DNA from: an uncultured Candidatus Saccharibacteria bacterium
Lineage (GTDB): Bacteria > Patescibacteriota > Saccharimonadia > Saccharimonadales > Saccharimonadaceae
Reading direction: 5' to 3'
Length of the DNA stretch: 54,728 nucleotides
Assembly (NCBI GenBank): GCA_946548715.1
Contig: CAMNPZ010000005.1
Span: 1 to 54,728, forward strand
Position numbers and translations under genes: made by a program. How positions within the stretch are numbered: position 1 is the first letter of the stretch; each line of letters begins with the position of its first letter. The notes under the pieces are model-generated. The model searched no databases. It was not told where the DNA came from and saw only the letters and a program-made list of their open reading frames with translations. Positions 14,317 to 54,728 of the stretch are shown in pieces.

Positions 14317-14365
14317 GTTTATATTTTACCACGCGGTGTGCTACAATGGTAATATTAACAATTTA

Positions 14366-14466
14366 ATATCAAGAAGGAGCGAGGGAGCGGCCCGGTGACC
14401 TCCTGCCAACCTAGCACGCCAAGACGGCGAGCCAAGGTGGTAAATCCGACCAGAAAGGAAAGATAT
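14366..14466 (+). promoter_or_regulatory. SAM-I (S-box) riboswitch
   Basis: AUAUCAAGAAGGAGCGAGGGAGCGGCCCGGUGACCUCCUGCCAACCU...AGGUGGUAAAUCCGACCAGAAAGGAAAGAUAU aligns with the S-box consensus (AUCAAGAGaGGugGAGGGAcuGGCCCgAUGAaaCCyCGGCAACC...GGUGCuAAuUCC...AAAGAU); directly upstream of metK. Confidence 0.88.
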
Positions 14467-15508
14467 GTTCTATCGAACTGCGGAGAGCGTTTCTCCGAAA
14501 CACCCAGACAAATTATGTGACCAAATTAGCGATGCGATTTTGGACGCATATCTTAAAGAGGACCCAAATGCGCGCGTGGCGGCCGAGGCTTGTGGCGGAC
14601 ACGGCGTAGTATTCGTAACTGGCGAAATTACGTCGACGGCTGGCGAGGTTGACATTCCCGCCATCGTGCATCGTATCGCTGGCGATGACATGGAAGTACA
14701 CACGAAAATCGTCAAACAATCGCCCGAAATCGCTGCGGGGGTAGATACCGGCGGGGCTGGCGACCAGGGAATCATGATTGGTTATGCTTGCGATGAAACA
14801 CCGGAAATGTTGCCGCGCGAAGTGGTTTTGTCGAGAAGGCTAAATCAGTTCATTTACGAGAAACACCCGTATGATGGTAAGACCCAGGTCACGATTGCGC
14901 CAGATGGGTCGATTGATTCTATCGTAGTAAGCTTCCAAAACGTATCATCGAAGGAACTGTCCCATTTGGTGTCCGAATGGCTGGATACCGAAGGAGTCCT
15001 GGAAAAACAGCAGGTTACGATGCTATCAAAAAGAATCCTGGATGAGCCTGAGGAGTTTGAATTATTGACAAAAAATAACGATTCAATTATTGCGTATATT
15101 AACCCAGCTGGCGACTGGAATCAGGGTGGATTTGAAGCCGATACCGGCCTGACTGGTCGTAAGTTAATCGTGGATAATTACGGTCCACGCGTAGCTATTG
15201 GCGGTGGCTGTTACTCAGGCAAGGATCCGTCCAAGGTAGATCGTTCAGCGGCTTACATGGCACGCAGGATAGCAGTGGACTATCTGCGCAACCGCAAAGC
15301 ACACGAAGTACTAGTGCGACTGGCTTACGCGATTGGCTATGCTGAGCCACTAGAGAAAACCGTGATTATCGATGGTAAGCCAGAGGAAATTAATGGATAC
15401 GATTTAACCCCAAATGGCATCATTAAACATTTGAACCTGAAACGCCCGATTTACGAGGCGACCGCGCGCTACGGTCACTACGGCGAAGGATTCGACTGGG
15501 ATAAATAA
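14465..15508 (+). CDS. metK: S-adenosylmethionine synthase
   Basis: MFYRTAESVSPKHPDKLCDQISDAILDA, GGAGDQGIMIGYACDETPE, GGGCYSGKDPSKVDRSAAYMARR. Confidence 0.97.
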   Translation: MFYRTAESVSPKHPDKLCDQISDAILDAYLKEDPNARVAAEACGGHGVVFVTGEITSTAGEVDIPAIVHRIAGDDMEVHTKIVKQSPEIAAGVDTGGAGDQGIMIGYACDETPEMLPREVVLSRRLNQFIYEKHPYDGKTQVTIAPDGSIDSIVVSFQNVSSKELSHLVSEWLDTEGVLEKQQVTMLSKRILDEPEEFELLTKNNDSIIAYINPAGDWNQGGFEADTGLTGRKLIVDNYGPRVAIGGGCYSGKDPSKVDRSAAYMARRIAVDYLRNRKAHEVLVRLAYAIGYAEPLEKTVIIDGKPEEINGYDLTPNGIIKHLNLKRPIYEATARYGHYGEGFDWDK

Positions 15509-25519: not shown

Positions 25520-27229
25520 TTACGGTGCCAATGTGAAGGCTTTGCCGCTGGATGGAGTGGCGTAGACAGATACAGTGTTGCCATACATTCGGCTGGTAGT
25601 GTTATCGATACCGTTACCATTAGTTTGCGGGATAATTACTGACCAAATAGACGCATTGGGACCAGCACCTGACAACATAGTACCCATATTAGGAACTACA
25701 CCGCTCATGTTGGTTACCCTGGAAGTGTCCCAATTAGAAAGATCTAATGAGAAGGTGGAAGCACTCATGCCAGCATCATAAAACATTGCATTCATATTAG
25801 TGACGCTAGAAGTATCCCAGTCGGAAAGGTCAAGTGAAAAAGTAGAGACGTTGAGGCCAGTACTGAGAAACATACCACTCATATTAGTGACGCTAGAAGT
25901 ATCCCAGTCGGAAAGGTCAAGTGAAAAAGTAGAGACGTTGCGGCCAGCGGCATAGAACATGGCGCCCATATTAGTCACACTGGAAGTGTTCCAGGAAGAA
26001 AGGTCACCGATAGACCAGTCGGTGGCACTAAAGCCGACCGAGCGAAACATGGATGCCATGTCAGTCACACTAGAAGTATCCCAAGAGGATAGGTCTAGCG
26101 AGAAGGTGGGGGCATCATAACCTGCGTCATAGAACATGCTATACATATTAACTACACCAGAAGTATCCCAGTCGGAAATCGCTGGCGCAGTAGAAAGAGA
26201 TCGCAAGCTGTAAAACATATATGACGAATCTGGATTGAGTACCGGAGTGGCATTGCCAGAATAAACATACATAATGCCAGCATCATTGGTATTATCAAAG
26301 AAAATATAGGCAGGCTTATCTGAAGTAGAAAGCGAGATAGTGTTGGCTTCGGTTGGTTCGAAATCGGCAGGGAGGGAGTCGGCGGTTTGAATGGATTTAA
26401 TAAGACTGTCACTATTATTGTAGGTTTTTGTTTCACCTGCGGCGAGAGACTTCATCTTGGCGTTGACGTTTTGGCCTGTATCAAGGAAGGCAGGAATGAT
26501 TGGAGCTGGGTGATTAGCTGGATGAACGAGTGTGTATATCACCTGTCCACTATACGTATCCGCAGGCTGAGTCTTGCTGATATAAGCTGCATAAGTAGTA
26601 GTAAGTTTAACTCCACCAGTAGTTTCAGTCATATCAGTGCCAGAGTTCTTATGAGCTACTTTAACGTATTCATTTGGGACTACATGATATTGTGAGAAAG
26701 GAGCCTGAGTAGCACCAGATTCTGCTTGGCTAGGAAGAGCTACATTGGGAGCAGAATCAATAGTGAAGGCATTGTCAGCTGAAGTATCTCCTGAGTCCTG
26801 AGTCATAGTAAGTTTCATGGCCCAGTTAGATACATCAGGGTTACCAGCAGTCGTAGCAATACCTGATTCTATAGTTGCATCACCAGAAGCAGTTGTTCCG
26901 ACTAGTTTATTACTATTTGTTCCTCCTACTTCATTCCCTGTATATCCTGCTGCATATATAGCGAATCCTTCATTATCATTACAGAATGCATGGAGTACTG
27001 TAGAACCTATATCATGGTCATATAGTCCATTATTAATATTGGCATTATGGGACTGCATGCCAGTACCGGACATAGTGCAGGAGATAGGCACTGTAATATT
27101 TATCTCATCTACGACGGAAGGGTCGTCGGCGGAGACATGGGAAGAAGCCAATACGCCACCAGCGAGCAGACTAATACTAGCTAGACTTAGCGGGATTAGG
27201 TTGATGTTGTTTAATTGTCGTTTGTGCAT
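25520..27229 (-). CDS. BspA-like/DUF285 surface protein
   Basis: 30-aa repeats W(D/N)TS.VT(N/D)M..MF; signal peptide; start at M6 (AAAGG SD). Confidence 0.85.
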   Translation of the reverse strand: MHKRQLNNINLIPLSLASISLLAGGVLASSHVSADDPSVVDEINITVPISCTMSGTGMQSHNANINNGLYDHDIGSTVLHAFCNDNEGFAIYAAGYTGNEVGGTNSNKLVGTTASGDATIESGIATTAGNPDVSNWAMKLTMTQDSGDTSADNAFTIDSAPNVALPSQAESGATQAPFSQYHVVPNEYVKVAHKNSGTDMTETTGGVKLTTTYAAYISKTQPADTYSGQVIYTLVHPANHPAPIIPAFLDTGQNVNAKMKSLAAGETKTYNNSDSLIKSIQTADSLPADFEPTEANTISLSTSDKPAYIFFDNTNDAGIMYVYSGNATPVLNPDSSYMFYSLRSLSTAPAISDWDTSGVVNMYSMFYDAGYDAPTFSLDLSSWDTSSVTDMASMFRSVGFSATDWSIGDLSSWNTSSVTNMGAMFYAAGRNVSTFSLDLSDWDTSSVTNMSGMFLSTGLNVSTFSLDLSDWDTSSVTNMNAMFYDAGMSASTFSLDLSNWDTSRVTNMSGVVPNMGTMLSGAGPNASIWSVIIPQTNGNGIDNTTSRMYGNTVSVYATPSSGKAFTLAP

Positions 27230-27411: not shown

Positions 27412-28878
27412 ATGAAAAAATTACCAATCGTTGCATTAATCGGCCAGACCAATGCTGGGAAATCCAGTCTATTAAATCGGATGGCGCGCAAAAATATCGC
27501 TATCGTGGCTCGCGAGGAGGGAACTACACGCGATAACGTGGTGGCGACGATTGATAATGCTTTTATTTTGGTTGACACGGCGGGACTAAAAGACCCGAGT
27601 GATGATTTCGAGGCGTCTATTCAAGAGCAGATTCAGGATGCGATTGAATCTGCTGACATGATTCTAGTGACGCTTGATTCGTCGAAATACTTCGACCATC
27701 GGGACCGCAAGATTGCCAAGGACGCTTTGCGCTCTGGTAAGCCTGTTTTCCTAGTCTTAAACAAGTGCGACCTCGGCGAGTCCTTACCGATCGAGGAATT
27801 CCGGGCGCTTGGTATTGCACCCGAAAATATCTACTATACTTCCGCTACGACCGGGCAAGGGATAGAGAAACTTAAAGGAATGGTATTGGACGGAATAGCT
27901 GGATTTTGCTCATCGAAGGGGGTCCGGAGGCTGGCAAGCCGAGGGGTAGCGCCGGCCGCCCGTGGCGACGGGCCGGCCGGACGCGCCCCGAGAGGAGCAA
28001 AATCAGCTATTCTGTCTGAATCCACTCCACTTAAACTTGCCCTAATCGGGCGGCCGAATGTAGGGAAGTCATCGCTGTTTAATACACTTGGTAAGAAACA
28101 ACAGGCGATTGTGTCGAGTCGTCAGGGAACTACGCGCGATGTGAATCGAGTACAAGTGAAGTATAAGGGCAGAGAGCTGGAAATACTAGACACAGCGGGT
28201 TTACGCAAGCCAGGCAAACGCGAGGTAGGGATTGAGAAATTTAGCGCCATCCGCACACTGGCGGCCATAGAAGAGTCGGACGTTTGTTGTTTGTTAGTGG
28301 ATTCCACCGAGCCGCACAGTAAGCTCGACCAGTCTCTCGCAGGACAGATTGTCGAGGCAGGCAAGGGAATCATTATGGTGGTAACAAAGGCAGATTTACT
28401 AGAAAACGCCGAACCGACTAACTACTTCGGCGAGGAAAATATCGGTAATCGTACGGCGGCAGATTTCCTAATTGACCAGCTGGAGAAAGATTATGATTTT
28501 CTTCCTTATGCTCCAGTAATACTGACCTCGTCGGAGACGGGTGAGAATGTAACACAACTGTTCGAACTAGCATTACAGGTAGATGAGGCACGTCACACTG
28601 AAGTTAAAACAGCCGAGCTTAATAAGATTTTAAACGAGGCCATCGTCTCTCACCCGCCAGCAGGACTCAAAAACACCCGACCGAAACCAAAATACATCGT
28701 ACAAACCGACACCTGCCCGCCGTGGTTCGTGGTGCACGGGCACGATTTGGGATTACTGCACTGGTCATGGAAACGATTCTTGGAGCGCAAAATTCGCGAA
28801 AAATACCCCTTCATTGGTACGCCAATTATGTTTTCTTACCGAAGCGATAACAGAGATAAAATTGACAAAAAAGCTTAA
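27412..28878 (+). CDS. der: ribosome biogenesis GTPase Der, with in-frame hairpin insertion in the inter-domain linker
   Basis: two G domains: ALIGQTNAGKSSLLNR and ALIGRPNVGKSSLFNTL; KH-like C-term. Confidence 0.95.
   Translation: MKKLPIVALIGQTNAGKSSLLNRMARKNIAIVAREEGTTRDNVVATIDNAFILVDTAGLKDPSDDFEASIQEQIQDAIESADMILVTLDSSKYFDHRDRKIAKDALRSGKPVFLVLNKCDLGESLPIEEFRALGIAPENIYYTSATTGQGIEKLKGMVLDGIAGFCSSKGVRRLASRGVAPAARGDGPAGRAPRGAKSAILSESTPLKLALIGRPNVGKSSLFNTLGKKQQAIVSSRQGTTRDVNRVQVKYKGRELEILDTAGLRKPGKREVGIEKFSAIRTLAAIEESDVCCLLVDSTEPHSKLDQSLAGQIVEAGKGIIMVVTKADLLENAEPTNYFGEENIGNRTAADFLIDQLEKDYDFLPYAPVILTSSETGENVTQLFELALQVDEARHTEVKTAELNKILNEAIVSHPPAGLKNTRPKPKYIVQTDTCPPWFVVHGHDLGLLHWSWKRFLERKIREKYPFIGTPIMFSYRSDNRDKIDKKA
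27889..28016. repeat. hairpin element family A (79-nt core 27913-27991) with der-specific inverted arms
   Basis: arms GACGGAATAGCTGGATTTTGCTC / GAGCAAAATCAGCTATTCTGTC; core shared (reverse orientation) with topA and ftsQ-like copies. Confidence 0.9.
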
Positions 28879-32941: not shown

Positions 32942-35500
32942 ATGGCAAAAAATTTGGTAATAGTAGAGAGCCCAGCGAAAGCGCATACGATCGAGAAGTA
33001 TCTCGGGCCGGATTTTAAGGTGTTGGCTTCGGTCGGACATATTCGCAAGGACACGAAAGTAGATAAGGCGACATTTGATGTAACGTATGAGATTGATCCG
33101 GGACACAAGTCGATTATTGCCGAATTAAAGAGTGAAGCTAAAAAAGCTGACAAAATCTGGCTCGCAACCGATGAAGACCGCGAAGGAGAGTCGATTTCGT
33201 GGCATCTTTGCGAGGTGTTGCAGTTACCGAAGAATACGGCGCGAATCACTTTTCATGAAATTACAAAACCAGCACTCGAGAATGCGATCAAAAACCCACG
33301 CACGGTGGATATGGACATGGTCTCATCGCAGCAGGCACGGCAAACTCTAGATATGTTAGTAGGATATGATTTATCAGATATGGTGCGCAAAAAGGTGCCC
33401 GGAGCGATTTCAGCGGGGCGCGTACAGTCGCCGGCGCTCAGATTAATCGTAGAGCGAGAAAAAGAAATCGAGAAGTTCGATTCCAAGTTTAACTTCAAGA
33501 TTACTGGTGAATTCGCTGCCAGCAGTGTAAAATCAGGTGCTTCTCGGGACGCTTCGTCGCGCCCGTCGTTACGGGGCTCCTCGCTCACTCGCTCCCCGTT
33601 GGTCGCGCAAGCCCTCGAAACACCTGATTCTTACACTGCCGAAAGCACCACATTCACAGCCAACTACGACGGTAAAGCTCCTGAAACCGAAGACGAAGCG
33701 AACAAACTACTCGAATTATTGTCACAGTCGGACTTTGAGGTGGAAGATGTTGAAGAAACGGAAGGAACGAAGGCAAATCCAGTACCGTTCACGACTGCGG
33801 CTTTGCAAATTGAGGCTAATAGTAAACTAGGGTTCGCATCGCGCACTACGATGAGTGCAGCACAAGGACTGTACCAGGCTGGCTTGATTACTTACCACAG
33901 AACCGATTCACTCAATTTGTCCTCGCAGGCGGTTGGGGCGATTGCGAGGTATATCGAAGAAACATTTGGGAAGAATTACTTAAAGGTACGGCATTTCAAA
34001 ACCAAGGATGCTTCAGCCCAGGAGGCGCACGAGGCAATCCGTCCAACTGATGTTTTTCGAACTAAGGCAGGGAAGAATGATTACGAAAAACGGCTTTATC
34101 AATTGATCTGGTCTCGTACTGTGGCTACTCAAATGGCCAATGCAAAAGTCGCCAAAACTACGATTCGCCTTACCGCAAAGGAGCTCGAAATGGCTTCTCT
34201 CGGGGCGCGTCCAGCCGGCCCGTCGCCACGGGCGGCTGGCGCTACCCCTCGCGCTGCCGCGCTCCGGACCCCCTTCGATAAGCCATCTTCAAGCTCCTTT
34301 GTCGCTAAAGGCGAAGTTGTAGTTTTTGATGGATTTTTGAGGGTTTATGGGAAGTCGAAGGACTTGGAGTTACCGAAGGTAGCAAAAGGCGACAAGATGG
34401 ATTGCTTAGAGCTAACTGCGAAACAGACTTACGGCAAACCGCCGGCAAGATACACTGAAGGGTCTCTGGTAAAGAAGCTGGAAGAGCTTGGAATTGGCCG
34501 TCCGTCGACTTACGCATCGATTATGACAGCGATTCAGGCCAGAAAATACGTTGAAAAAGGCGAATCCGAAGGAACTGAACGCGACGTAATAGAATTAAAG
34601 GCTACAAAAGGTCAAGTCTCACGTAGTACCGTAAAAGAAAAATACGGTGCCAATAAGGGACGTCTCGTACCGACGCCAATCGGCGAGCTAGTTAGCGGAT
34701 TTTTGACAGACAACTTCAAGAGTATCGTCGATTACAAGTTTACAGCAAACATCGAGAAGGATTTGGACCTGGTGGCAGAGGCGAAATTAGAGCGCGTCAA
34801 GATGCTCCGAGATTTCTATGGGCCATTTCACGATACAGTACTAGCCGCCAACGGTGTAGAGCGTTATAATAATGCACGTTTGCTAGGACATCATCCGGAG
34901 AACGGAAAACCAATTTATGCCAAAGTAGGCAAAACTGGTGGCTTTATCCAGCTAGGTGATAACGAGAAGGAGGCTGGCGAAAAACCGGTATTCGCACCGC
35001 TTCCTAAGCGAAAATCAGTGAAAACGGTAACTTTGGAACAGGCACTGAAGCAGTTGGCCTTACCATCACTGCCGCGTTCGCTAGGCAACGCGCCCGATGG
35101 GACCGAGTTAATTGCCGCTAATGGGCCGTTTGGACCATATCTTAAGGGTGGCAAATACAATGTACCAATGAAAGATTTAGATCCATACACGGTGACTCTA
35201 GCGGAGGCTTTGCCTTTGTACCAGAAAAAAATCGATTCAATGATTGCCGATTGGGATGACATCCAGATCATTAACGGCGCTTATGGACCATACGTGAAGG
35301 GACCTGGTCGACGCAACAATGTCAAAATTCCGAAGGAGATGGACCCGAAGAAGATTACCAAAGAAGAAGCGCTCAAAATGCTCGAAAACAAGCCAAAAAC
35401 TACTCGACGCGGCGTGCGTGGTGGACGTAAGAAGACCACCAAGACAGCCAATAAGAAGGCAGCCAAGAAGACCACGACAAAGAAGAAAACTAGTACATAG
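32942..35500 (+). CDS. topA: DNA topoisomerase I, with two in-frame hairpin insertions
   Basis: KNLVIVESPAKAHTIEKYLG, WLATDEDREGE, ITYHRTDSLNLS, Lys-rich tail. Confidence 0.96.
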   Translation: MAKNLVIVESPAKAHTIEKYLGPDFKVLASVGHIRKDTKVDKATFDVTYEIDPGHKSIIAELKSEAKKADKIWLATDEDREGESISWHLCEVLQLPKNTARITFHEITKPALENAIKNPRTVDMDMVSSQQARQTLDMLVGYDLSDMVRKKVPGAISAGRVQSPALRLIVEREKEIEKFDSKFNFKITGEFAASSVKSGASRDASSRPSLRGSSLTRSPLVAQALETPDSYTAESTTFTANYDGKAPETEDEANKLLELLSQSDFEVEDVEETEGTKANPVPFTTAALQIEANSKLGFASRTTMSAAQGLYQAGLITYHRTDSLNLSSQAVGAIARYIEETFGKNYLKVRHFKTKDASAQEAHEAIRPTDVFRTKAGKNDYEKRLYQLIWSRTVATQMANAKVAKTTIRLTAKELEMASLGARPAGPSPRAAGATPRAAALRTPFDKPSSSSFVAKGEVVVFDGFLRVYGKSKDLELPKVAKGDKMDCLELTAKQTYGKPPARYTEGSLVKKLEELGIGRPSTYASIMTAIQARKYVEKGESEGTERDVIELKATKGQVSRSTVKEKYGANKGRLVPTPIGELVSGFLTDNFKSIVDYKFTANIEKDLDLVAEAKLERVKMLRDFYGPFHDTVLAANGVERYNNARLLGHHPENGKPIYAKVGKTGGFIQLGDNEKEAGEKPVFAPLPKRKSVKTVTLEQALKQLALPSLPRSLGNAPDGTELIAANGPFGPYLKGGKYNVPMKDLDPYTVTLAEALPLYQKKIDSMIADWDDIQIINGAYGPYVKGPGRRNNVKIPKEMDPKKITKEEALKMLENKPKTTRRGVRGGRKKTTKTANKKAAKKTTTKKKTST
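33522..33640. repeat. hairpin element family B inside topA
   Basis: arms GCAGTGTAAAATCAGGTG / CACCTGATTCTTACACTGC; core contains TCGCGCCCGTCGTTACGGGGCTC. Confidence 0.88.
34166..34313. repeat. hairpin element family A (core 34200-34278) inside topA
   Basis: arms CGCCTTACCGCAAAGGAGCTCGAAATGGCTT / AAGCCATCTTCAAGCTCCTTTGTCGCTAAAGGCG. Confidence 0.9.
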
Positions 35501-42220: not shown

Positions 42221-42901
42221 TTATTTCCAGAAGGCGCGGCCGTCGACGCGGACGTCGACGTATTCGAAGGTAGTGATTCCCTGTCCCGCTAGATAACGGA
42301 GCATGCGGTCGATGTCTTCGGCAGTGATGGCGGCGTCGCGGTCGATGGTGGTTTTAAAATAACCCGTGTAACCGTCGAGATAGAGGTCGACTTCGCGAAT
42401 AGAGTCGGTTGGGATAACAGCTTTGATGGGTTGGTAGCTGTATGATTTGAGGTCGGACTCGATGAGGCCGATGTAGTTTCGCATCCGTGAAGTGATTTTG
42501 CCGCCGGTGGCAGAGGCGGAAGCGTCGATGATTTCGATGGTGGGCTCGGCGGTAAGAATTGGTTCGGGGGCGACTTCTTCTGGCGATAGTGGTTCGACTT
42601 CTTGGTGAAGAAAAGTAGTAGCAAGCACAATCAAGATAACTATTAGGCTCACGAAACCGAGGCTAACAGAAACTACTCGTGTAAGGTATCTCTGTTTATC
42701 TTTCTTGCGCGCTGCGGCGCGTTCGTTCTTAGTCTCGAGCTTTTCCCTTTTGGCGCCAATAGTGAGGCCTACAACAACCTGGGAAGAGCGTCTACTAAAC
42801 TTCGGGGCGCGTCCGGCCGGCCCATCGCCATGGGCGGCCGGCGCTACCTCTCGCGCTGCCGCGCTCCGAACCCCCTCGTTTTTAGTAGACTCTCTTCCCA
42901 C
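42221..42901 (-). CDS. FtsQ-like bitopic membrane protein, GTG start; N-terminus carries the hairpin element
   Basis: position after murG, single TM (VVSVSLGFVSLIVILIVLATTFL), small extracellular domain. Confidence 0.55.
   Translation of the reverse strand: MGRESTKNEGVRSAAAREVAPAAHGDGPAGRAPKFSRRSSQVVVGLTIGAKREKLETKNERAAARKKDKQRYLTRVVSVSLGFVSLIVILIVLATTFLHQEVEPLSPEEVAPEPILTAEPTIEIIDASASATGGKITSRMRNYIGLIESDLKSYSYQPIKAVIPTDSIREVDLYLDGYTGYFKTTIDRDAAITAEDIDRMLRYLAGQGITTFEYVDVRVDGRAFWK
42781..42899. repeat. hairpin element family A (core 42802-42879) at the 5' end of the ftsQ-like gene
   Basis: arms GGGAAGAGCGTCTACTAAA / TTTAGTAGACTCTCTTCCC. Confidence 0.9.
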
Positions 42902-46538: not shown

Positions 46539-48416
46539 CTACTGGTTAGGTTTGATTTTGTAATAATCAATGAGGTAATTAGATAAGGAGTTAAAAAGAT
46601 TCATGGCGTCACCAGAACCGATGGACTGCCCTTCGCCCCACATCTTGGTCATGATGACATATTGCGGCATTTCGCCGCTGGGTGCAATAAAACCAATATA
46701 GGAGCCGATAAGTTCGGCAAAAGAATCATCGTAGGCACCATTTCTGACAACTTGGGCTGTACCGGATTTACCACCAATATCGTAACCTGGGCGGTCAATG
46801 CCGCCACGTACCAAGTACTCGCGGTTATTGATTAGCATACTGCGCATAGAAGCAGAAGTTTCGTCGGTGAGGATCTTGTCTTCGACGGGTCCTGCCGATG
46901 TGCTATTCTCGACGGGTTCTGTCGTCGTCTCCTCCCCCGCGAGAACTTCGCGGGGGGGCCCCTCCGACGACGCCACCCGTCCATGTAAAGCATCTTTTGG
47001 AATAACCTTGCCGTCTTCATAATATCCTTTGATGACAGAGGGGGTGCGCCAAGTGCCACCGTTGACGACGGCCGAGAAAGCAGTAGCAGTTTGAAGCATT
47101 GTAATACTGAGGTTTTGGCCGAAAGTAAGATTAGCATAGGTAGAATCGCGGCCCCAACCTTCATTTGGGTCTGGGATGAACCCCTCGGCTTCGGCCAATT
47201 CGACGCCAGTAGGCTGGCCTAAGCGGAATTTGTTATAGTAATAGTCAAAGAGCTTTTCCCTGCCTTGTTGATTAATAGAGTTAGGATTGCCGCCCAATAG
47301 TTTGAGTGCATAAATAGAACCGGTGTTTAGTGACCAGTACAAAGCGTCTTTCATAGTTAAAGTGCCATAGAGGGAGCTACGTTGTTCGGCATTCCAAATC
47401 TTCCAATCATCGACTTCTTCATAATGTTTATTAAAGAATGTCGTATCAGGTGTCATAACACCTTCGTTGATAGCCGCCGAGAAAGCGAAGTTTTTGCAAA
47501 TTGAGGCCGGTTCGTATGGAACATCAAGAGTATAGTTGTTGTAAACGGATGCGTCGGTGACATTGGCGTAATTTGCGGGGTCATAATTTGGCAAATTAGC
47601 CATGGTAAGGATTTCGCCAGTATTGGGATTCATGATGAGTACAGACGCGTTGGTGGCGGCCGTATGAGAGATGGCTTCGGCCGTGATTCTTTCGACACCT
47701 TTTTCGAGACCGCGATCAATGGATAGCACGACGTTTTCGCCGTCTTCGGCGGGGATTTTGGTATTGTCTTTACCGATGGAGAGCGCTACGTTGTTAACAT
47801 CTGAAGTGGTTTTAAGTAGGCCATCTTTGCCAGATAGGATGTGATTGAGTGAACCTTCGACGCCGTACTGACCAACGCCGTCAGCATTGACGAAGCCGAG
47901 TAATCCTGAAGCCAGTTGCCCTTCAGAATACACTCGTTGGTTGTTTTTCTTGAACCAGACGGCACCGATGTCTTCGGAAGCGATTTTTTCTGCAAGTTCG
48001 CGCGGGACGTTTTTGGCGACGATGGCGTATCGGAGACCTTCTTGCTGGTATATATCGTCAAAATTAACCGCAATGTAGGGTTCGGCGTAAGTCTTGAGAG
48101 CTTGTTCGATGGGTTCCCTTTTGGTGACGGTCGGATCGATAATAATCTGATAGGCTGTTTGGTTCAACACGACTGGTACCGGTTCGCCCTTATCCATCAT
48201 ATAGATTTCGCCGCGCCGCGCCGTAATGGTTTCAAGTAGGGTGTGCTGTTCTTCGGCTTTAGCTACCCAAGCGTTGTGTTCGATGATTTGAATGAAAAAA
48301 AGCCGCACCACAATAATTGCAAAAGTAATCAGAACGACATTTTGCAAAATTTTAATGCGACTATGAGTCGATTGTGCAGAAGATTGCTTGATGGACGACT
48401 GACTATTCCGTGGCAT
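46539..48416 (-). CDS. ftsI: FtsI-type penicillin-binding protein
   Basis: SICK, SLN, KSGTAQV transpeptidase motifs; N-terminal TM. Confidence 0.93.
   Translation of the reverse strand: MPRNSQSSIKQSSAQSTHSRIKILQNVVLITFAIIVVRLFFIQIIEHNAWVAKAEEQHTLLETITARRGEIYMMDKGEPVPVVLNQTAYQIIIDPTVTKREPIEQALKTYAEPYIAVNFDDIYQQEGLRYAIVAKNVPRELAEKIASEDIGAVWFKKNNQRVYSEGQLASGLLGFVNADGVGQYGVEGSLNHILSGKDGLLKTTSDVNNVALSIGKDNTKIPAEDGENVVLSIDRGLEKGVERITAEAISHTAATNASVLIMNPNTGEILTMANLPNYDPANYANVTDASVYNNYTLDVPYEPASICKNFAFSAAINEGVMTPDTTFFNKHYEEVDDWKIWNAEQRSSLYGTLTMKDALYWSLNTGSIYALKLLGGNPNSINQQGREKLFDYYYNKFRLGQPTGVELAEAEGFIPDPNEGWGRDSTYANLTFGQNLSITMLQTATAFSAVVNGGTWRTPSVIKGYYEDGKVIPKDALHGRVASSEGPPREVLAGEETTTEPVENSTSAGPVEDKILTDETSASMRSMLINNREYLVRGGIDRPGYDIGGKSGTAQVVRNGAYDDSFAELIGSYIGFIAPSGEMPQYVIMTKMWGEGQSIGSGDAMNLFNSLSNYLIDYYKIKPNQ
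46911..46981. repeat. GC-rich nested hairpin inside ftsI
   Basis: GACGGGTTCTGTCGTCG / CGACGACGCCACCCGTC around CCCCCGCGA-gaact-TCGCGGGGG. Confidence 0.75.
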
Positions 48417-48750
48417 AGCCGGTTACCGTGGCATTCTCCATGGCAGCCGCAACCGTGCTGTTTTCGGCAGTAGCGACGGAGTTCAGACGGGCTTTTTCGA
48501 CTGCTAGGTCATCTTTCTTGGCATTCATTTCAGTAATTTCTGCTTCAACAGAGGAAATTTCGTAGTCAAAACCAGTGGCCTTGGTTCCCTCAGCCACATA
48601 GATGAGACCAAACACCAATGTCAACATGCCAACAATGACGATTTGTGAGATAGAGCCTAAGCTCCTCTTGGTGTGACGGACGGTATTGCGGTTACGGACG
48701 AAAGTCGTACCGGTGGCGCGTCGTGAAATATAGGTTGTTTGGTTATGCAT
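48403..48750 (-). CDS. FtsL-like bitopic coiled-coil protein
   Basis: position between rsmH and ftsI; single TM then coiled coil. Confidence 0.65.
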   Translation of the reverse strand: MHNQTTYISRRATGTTFVRNRNTVRHTKRSLGSISQIVIVGMLTLVFGLIYVAEGTKATGFDYEISSVEAEITEMNAKKDDLAVEKARLNSVATAENSTVAAAMENATVTGYATE

Positions 48751-52932: not shown

Positions 52933-54728
52933 CTATTCTGACGGGATAAAGGTGCCTTCGCTATTCCAGGTACCGGCACGACGAGCGAAAGTGGGATGAG
53001 CCGGCGCTTTTCCGAACATACTATAGAAATTATTAGCGGCCGATGTAGAGCTACCAGCAGTAGCGGTAACGTTAGTAATATTCCAGTTATTGATTGCTGA
53101 GGCGTCGGTGAGCGAGACAGAATCAAAGAACATAGAGTTCATATCTGTTGCACTGGAAACATTCCAGTTTTCTAGACCAGCTAGGGTAGTAGTAGTTGAT
53201 TTATCAGTTTGGTTAAAGGCACCTTTGAAGCTTTCCACTTTACTAACATTCCAGTTTCCCAGAGGCAAGAATGAGGCTATATTATTATTCTGAAACATGA
53301 AACTCATATCTGTCACGCTGGAAACGTTCCAATTCTCTAGTGGGGACAAATCGATAATAGCATCATCAAATTTAGATTCACTTGGACCCATGGCGAACAT
53401 CCAGCTCATATTTGTTACTTTGCCTGTATCCCATGTTGACAGCCCTCGAAGAGAGGTTAAGTGACTTGTCTCATAGAACAACGCGGTCATAGAAGTCACA
53501 TTGCTCACATTCCAACCGCCTAGAGCAGAAATATCTGAAAGATTAGACGCCCCACAGAACATCTGGTACATGGTTTCAACGTTACCTGTATCCCAATTAG
53601 CTAAGGCCGAAATATCTGAAAGATTAGACGCCCCGAAGAACATATTCCGCATTGTGGTGACCTTGCTTGTATCCCAGGATTCTAAACCTCTAAGTGAAAC
53701 CAAGCCTGTTGCCCCTTGAAACATGTTTGCTGTCGTCGTCACATTACTTACGTCCCATCTTGCTAGGCCGGAGATGTCCGCATGCAAATAGTTTTCTGCA
53801 GGGCAAGTTGAATCGGATGCAAATAAAAGGGACATGTCCGTAACATTTGAGACATTCCAAGCCGAGATGGCATCTAAATTTGTGAACTTAGAAGCACTAC
53901 AAGCGAACATAGCTTTCATGTTTGTCACTTTTGAAGTATCCCAAAACTTGAGACCGGAGATGTCGGAGAGATTAGTAAGCCTAAGGAATGCAAAAGAAGA
54001 ATCCGGATTCATGGTTACTTGATAACCACCAGAATAGAAATACATAATCCCAGCATCGTCAGTGTTGTCGAAGACAATGTAAACTGGGTGGGCGGATTCC
54101 GGAGTAGTGACGGTGTTTTCAGCAGTAGCAACGAAACCATCGGGGAGTGAGTCTGCCATGCGAATAGCCTTGATTCTAGTATCCAAGGTTTGCGTCGAAG
54201 CGTCCGTGATTCCCCCAGAAAGGTTTTTCAGCTTATTCGATAGCTCTTTACCAGTAATAAGCATAGAATCGGTCTGTGGGATAGGGTGGGAGGCTGGGCG
54301 TACGAGAGTGTAAATAACTTGTCCTGAGTAGGTATCTGCCGGTTGAGTCTTAGAAATGTAAGCAGCATAAGTAGTAGTAAGCTTAACTCCACCAGTAGTT
54401 TCAGTCATGTCGGTCATGGAGTTCTTATGGGCTACTTTAACATATTCATTTGGGACTACATGGTAGTCTGAGAAAGGAGCTTGAGTTGCACCTGATTCTG
54501 CAGTACTCGGAAGAGCTACATTTGGAGCAGAGTCTATGGTGAAGGCATTGTCAGTTGAAGTATCTCCACTATCCTGAGTCATAGTAAGTTTCATAGCCCA
54601 GTTAGATATGTCATTACTGCCTACTGGTCCTGTTGCAATACCTGATTCTATAGTTGCATTACCAGAAGCTGTTGTTCCTACTAGTTTATTACTATTTGTT
54701 CCTCCTACTTCATTTCCTGTATATCCTG
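52933..54728 (-). CDS. BspA-like/DUF285 surface protein, 5' end beyond window
   Basis: WD(T/V)S.VT.M..MF repeats; N-term domain ~90% identical by eye in DNA to the 25520 gene. Confidence 0.85.
   Translation of the reverse strand, partial: GYTGNEVGGTNSNKLVGTTASGNATIESGIATGPVGSNDISNWAMKLTMTQDSGDTSTDNAFTIDSAPNVALPSTAESGATQAPFSDYHVVPNEYVKVAHKNSMTDMTETTGGVKLTTTYAAYISKTQPADTYSGQVIYTLVRPASHPIPQTDSMLITGKELSNKLKNLSGGITDASTQTLDTRIKAIRMADSLPDGFVATAENTVTTPESAHPVYIVFDNTDDAGIMYFYSGGYQVTMNPDSSFAFLRLTNLSDISGLKFWDTSKVTNMKAMFACSASKFTNLDAISAWNVSNVTDMSLLFASDSTCPAENYLHADISGLARWDVSNVTTTANMFQGATGLVSLRGLESWDTSKVTTMRNMFFGASNLSDISALANWDTGNVETMYQMFCGASNLSDISALGGWNVSNVTSMTALFYETSHLTSLRGLSTWDTGKVTNMSWMFAMGPSESKFDDAIIDLSPLENWNVSSVTDMSFMFQNNNIASFLPLGNWNVSKVESFKGAFNQTDKSTTTTLAGLENWNVSSATDMNSMFFDSVSLTDASAINNWNITNVTATAGSSTSAANNFYSMFGKAPAHPTFARRAGTWNSEGTFIPSE

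Follow-up and report, generated by a model that had tools for sequence, protein, structure and literature searches.

The window, the whole 54,728-nucleotide stretch analyzed here, is contig C5 of a 781,578-base Saccharibacteria genome (G000) comprising 26 contigs. On its minus strand, adjoining murG, lies an ORF of 226 aa (42221..42901); a family search with this ORF gave no match, so the name ftsQ-like reflects gene position alone. Its N-terminal ~40 codons are an insert in which an element core (42800..42878, minus strand; 97.7 bits against R1, our covariance model of the core) is enclosed by two host arms. The core-sense strand is the minus strand, which is also the coding strand of the gene. 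In core-sense numbering, the 5′ host arm occupies 42880..42899 (minus strand, GGGAAGAGAGTCTACTAAAA) and the 3′ host arm 42781..42799 (minus strand); the latter reads GGGAAGAGCGTCTACTAAA on the plus strand and is the reverse complement of the opposite arm, with one mismatch.

Within the core, RNAfold forms a basal stem between GAGGGGG (42871..42877) and CCCCGA (42802..42807), both on the minus strand. Fold and covariation together delimit a short hairpin, H1, with the loop GGCA (42853..42864, minus strand) and a long hairpin, H2, with the loop GGCG (42809..42844, minus strand).

A consensus pattern matched the window at exactly three places, 27908-27998 (-), 34193-34283 and 42802-42876, where none was expected. 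The second copy, with its arms, spans 27889..28016 on the plus strand (core 27915-27993); it is inserted in the sense of der, between the two GTPase domains of Der. The third (34172..34303, minus strand; core 34198-34276) lies in topA, its core-sense strand antisense to the gene. Der homologues in the named sequence collections all come from Candidatus Saccharibacteria, mostly of the ruminant gut, and the piece 42781-42899 is one copy of an element family dispersed in this ruminant-gut clade.

Two further stretches of the window are insert-like. TopA residues ~195-240 (33500-33700) form a Ser/Arg-rich stretch that has no aligned counterpart in solved topoisomerases, and 46850-47050, within the ORF 46541-48422, is strongly folded (z -5.1).

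Copies, host genes and site occupancy

BLAST of the genome with the ftsQ-like copy as query returned 21 places, and the R1 model found about 25 clear copies in the 781 kb, followed by a weaker tail of related types. Within one genome the cores are near-identical, and the arms are unrelated from copy to copy. Cores are ~80 nt long, with long forms of ~160 nt; in three copies the long hairpin's loop is enlarged by 75-85 nt. Translation across the copies placed nearly all of them in frame within conserved genes, in either orientation. The hosts are valS (twice), uvrB, topA, rarA, queA (twice), ligA, pcrA/uvrD, leuS, der, priA, obgE, gatA, uvrC, an aminopeptidase, a methyltransferase and the ftsQ-like gene, where the identities of der, topA, murG, queA and the RarA-type ATPase were checked and the others were assigned by eye or from PDB matches. 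Alignments with solved structures locate the inserts in loops or interdomain segments, as in the linker between the G1 and G2 domains of Der and in TopA, LigA, PcrA and UvrC.

Of 117 unique copies, 96 lie inside open frames of 200 aa or more; the core runs with the gene in 48 of these and against it in the other 48. Nearly all in-gene copies keep a stop-free frame, for which the naive expectation with a random insert is ~0.15. Judged from these open frames, the insert would be translated as an extra peptide of ~25 aa. The initial annotation had proposed that selection acts on structure and not on peptide; the covariation described below bears out the folded structure, and the exclusion of the peptide is put too strongly, because most copies lie in long open frames and translatability is therefore required as well.

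A folding scan of the genome marked 155 strongly folded places, 65 of them within open frames and other hairpin families included. Folding z-scores were more sensitive than gap-free palindrome censuses, which missed most in-gene copies. In valS (contig C6:1399-4618, 1073 aa; L002, L003), the encoded ValS apparently contains four or more separate in-frame inserts of the hairpin type, which belong to two or more families. Many long palindromes of unassigned families (150-250 bp, with arm scores reaching 38) lie in intergenic regions, for example at C9:22397-22608 and C2:76693-76874.

R1 matches were present in 102 of 118 sampled genomes of the genus; of the 153 genera sampled across the class, just 3 had matches, and these belong to a single family. 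Phage and plasmid records gave no match. Collection scans with the core pattern CGGAGNNNNGGCANNNNCGAG..., which had one N too many in two places, gave zeros that carry no weight. The correctly spaced pattern matched one viral contig, weakly and partially, in a GC-rich phage gene, which we took to be chance. Our literature search found no description of such elements in Saccharibacteria.

Occupancy varies between relatives, whose genomes are metagenome-assembled. In the der linker and in the uvrB and valS loops, the same place holds different hairpin elements across species and is empty in some. The species G056 and G104, ~92-97% identical where aligned, have different element types at lepA, and at one intergenic site a whole palindrome separates them. 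From such differences in presence and absence, we infer that the element moves. At L198/L218, the sole clean empty site, the two arms are both absent, and not just one; the empty state may be a deletion. MITEs of insertion sequences have conserved terminal inverted repeats and a direct target duplication; the arms here differ at each site, and no direct duplication was seen by eye at this one empty site.

Two side observations concern related structures. At L064, L065 and L066, and at L198 and L200 of G104/G056, a related family has a different first hairpin (CGTTCGCGACAACGGGAGCGAG) but shares the overall architecture. The der linker of L390 contains a near-perfect host palindrome around a 5-nt loop; it lacks a core, as though one had been lost or had been absent from the start.

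Covariation in the core and pairing of the arms

Read on the core-sense strand, the element consists of the basal stem GAnGGGG/CCCCGA, the bases CGGA, hairpin H1 (GCGC-GGCA-GCGC), the linker GAGnnnTA and hairpin H2 (GCGCCGGCCGCCCGT-GGCG-ACGGGCCGGCCGGACGC), the whole being closed by the host arms. The loops GGCA and GGCG and the junction bases are invariant across copies. RNAfold draws a three-way junction for either orientation, and it is more stable on the core-sense strand.

The paired base changes reported in the initial annotation are all present in the window sequence. The apical stem reads CCCGT-CGCC-ACGGG in der and topA and CCCAT-CGCC-ATGGG in the ftsQ-like copy; the next helix is CCGGCC/GGCCGG in der and the ftsQ-like copy and CCAGCC/GGCTGG in topA; and the second hairpin is GCGC-TGCC-GCGC in topA and the ftsQ-like copy and GGCT-TGCC-AGCC in der. 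Covariation persisted in a larger set of 64 distinct cores, the comparison on which the annotation had staked its claim. In this set 99.5% of cells pair, and double compensatory changes occur at 14 of the 19 pairs. Double-change cells number 138, compared with 26 ± 4 after shuffling (0/500 reaching the observed count) and 3-11 in slid controls; these are not counts of independent events, because the core alignment was made by fitting to the model, which does not include the arms, and because the copies share ancestry and are partly orthologous. The core helices contain 8 GT and 2 AC cells in about 2,140. Together, RNAfold and this strong covariation support the earlier proposal of a folded core that forms a three-way junction and is closed by the host arms.

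The closing helix is host sequence: the arms differ at each site, yet each is the reverse complement of its partner. Across the 117 unique copies the pairing has a median length of 19 nt (5-95%: 13-40), with a median score of 17 vs 0 for arms mixed between copies. In ligA, topA, uvrC, der and lepA, one arm, on the upstream or the downstream side, appears by eye to lie within conserved host sequence, which, on the same inspection, makes the opposite arm a copy of it.

Pairing is also kept in place between orthologues. G036 has an orthologous ftsQ-like insert, which differs from the window copy by four compensated pairs, one of which lies in the host arm (T-A to C-G) at the cost of a Ser-Gly change. 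With pairs defined from one sequence alone and both directions summed, this comparison gives 8 double changes vs 2 broken pairs. For der, with an antisense core, the comparison of L114/L118 shows 21 double changes, 1 GU and 6 broken pairs (both directions summed), and L112/L114 show 19, 9 and 10, respectively. A separate comparison gave zero broken pairs, which is not evidence because its structure was fitted to both orthologues.

Strand bias of the arms and its explanations

Arm mismatches within the first 20 nt, read on the core-sense strand, favor GT over AC at 35:8 in gene-sense copies, 34:1 in gene-antisense copies (p = 2e-9) and 10:2 in copies outside ORFs. Beyond 20 nt from the core this bias is absent. 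If the host mRNA kept the structure, an excess of AC would be expected in the antisense copies; GT was seen instead, which makes the core-sense strand itself the molecule that keeps the structure, whether in the form of DNA or of a separate RNA.

The best explanation, to which we give about even credence, is a family of mobile palindromic elements resembling those of Rickettsia, in which the folded strand primes snap-back copying that turns one flank into the complement of the other. The core lies either way round, mostly in surface loops or domain linkers of housekeeping genes, and persists where the reading frame remains open. With the core-sense strand single-stranded at insertion or replication, the basal stem GAnGGGG/CCCCGA would bring the 3′ end back to lie against the host bases immediately upstream. 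A polymerase could then copy ~20-40 nt of the upstream flank before returning to its template, leaving one flank as the reverse complement of the other, and recurring events of this kind would keep the palindrome paired despite sequence drift. Dispersal, covariation and the strand bias are observed, and this copying step is inferred. The GT bias may come from copying errors on the core-sense strand or from selection for a GT-tolerant hairpin; selection near the core is slightly favored because the bias is absent beyond 20 nt. The invariance of the loop sequences suggests that a protein recognizes the folded strand.

Filled and empty loop lengths in der, uvrB and valS are compatible with a copied arm that is either added or overwrites host sequence. 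A clean inverted duplication in which one arm is always added is weakened by the regression of loop length on arm length and by site L198. Known enzymes were also considered as a universal mover. The Y1 transposase domain (PF01797) has no match in the genome itself and occurs in only 5 of 116 congeners; reverse transcriptase (PF00078) is found in 67 of the 116 and is absent from G000, G026, G036 and G046, several element-rich genomes among them. Neither RAYT nor a reverse transcriptase was therefore retained in that role.

The arms could also be paired through selection on the hairpin rather than by copying, the mobile in-frame element being otherwise the same and its ssDNA, or a dedicated RNA, being bound or cleaved by a nuclease or transposase. 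We regard this as rather unlikely. It would account for a tolerance of GT and avoidance of AC that are confined to the ~20 nt adjoining the core on the core-sense strand and give way to neutral decay farther out, as well as for the invariant GGCA and GGCG loops and junction bases and the arm pairing retained by orthologous copies; host selection for a single-stranded hairpin could yield the same GT bias with no copying at all. However, a host gains nothing evident from preserving the pairing of site-specific arms in dead copies, and selection at the level of the element cannot act on the arms because new copies do not inherit them.

A cis-acting structure in the host mRNA, serving regulation, processing or as an RNase III site, is very unlikely, even though stable folds are predicted for der and the ftsQ-like gene. 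The host genes are unrelated, the same site carries different element types, and orientation is evenly split; read on the mRNA, the arm mismatches of antisense copies are AC and not GT. The orientation symmetry and the GT:AC counts in antisense genes led us to reject a host-mRNA function, and with it the view of the structure as a feature of the message.

The inserts interrupt otherwise conserved proteins, and translational bypass elements form closed hairpins, as the inserts do here. An intron-like or bypassed insert, lost before or during protein synthesis, is nonetheless most improbable: nearly all in-gene copies keep a frame free of stops, more often than naively expected of a random insert, both orientations are tolerated, and the Rfam 15 covariance models gave no match to the element. 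Chimeric palindromes from assembly or amplification are scarcely credible, for although the relatives in the named collections are metagenome-assembled, the same loci recur across many separately assembled genomes, orthologous copies covary and frames are open throughout.

Within the snap-back reading, we tentatively advance a more specific possibility, that the element spreads by folding: the inserted strand would snap back, prime on the host strand, rewrite ~20-40 nt of the gene in frame as the reverse complement of the adjoining sequence, and keep correcting the palindrome in situ over evolutionary time. Quasipalindrome correction by template switching, in which replication folds back and perfects imperfect inverted repeats, is a related process; it has been described for short native quasipalindromes and is not known to act on arms flanking a dispersed element.

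Comparison with known palindromic elements

To our knowledge, in-frame gene palindromes have been described as an oddity of Rickettsia, and we know of no explanation of how they move. The nearest known kind is these Rickettsia palindromic elements (RPE; Ogata et al. 2000, 2002), whose in-frame insertion is described in PMC10969869. According to that description they are palindromic, ~150 bp long, present as several families per genome and often in frame in unrelated housekeeping genes, where they are apparently tolerated. The Saccharibacteria element shares in-frame insertion into many unrelated protein genes, and its size, a core of ~80 nt plus two ~20-nt arms, falls within the RPE-type range of ~100-150 bp. 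In contrast, it belongs to another phylum and, set against the PMC10969869 description only, differs in its site-specific closing stem of host sequence, a three-way junction with invariant loops, insertion in either orientation and a strand-specific G-T arm bias.

REP/BIME/REPIN sequences, which RAYT (TnpA-REP) transposases move, are likewise short, dispersed hairpins that probably act single-stranded. REPs, however, are extragenic, unlike most of our copies, and the Y1_Tnp domain is missing from this genome and from 111 of 116 congeners. Repetitive hairpin elements (RHEs) of sponge mitochondria occasionally lie in genes, and the double hairpins of Allomyces lack flanking duplications, according to the relevant part of PMC2800124, which cites the latter; these mitochondrial elements are organellar and mostly intergenic or in rRNA, and that part of the source does not report host-derived complementary arms.

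The element thus adds a second, distant lineage with in-frame palindromes, in reduced genomes. Its copies occur in more than 100 species, its fold covaries and its arms bear a strand-specific signature. How such elements move and are tolerated becomes testable by comparing close strains. Many conserved Saccharibacteria proteins bear element-encoded loops, which bears on annotation and phylogeny. Our results suggest an unusual copy-and-fold route by which DNA spreads within genes without destroying them.

The window also contains other repeats and a riboswitch. Tandem ~87-nt repeats occupy 25706-26178 in a large repetitive ORF, possibly that of a surface protein, and the stretches 26508-26949 and 54284-54728, in large repetitive ORFs that possibly encode surface proteins, are 82-95% identical. 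A SAM riboswitch (14363-14469) lies immediately 5′ of the ORF at 14465.
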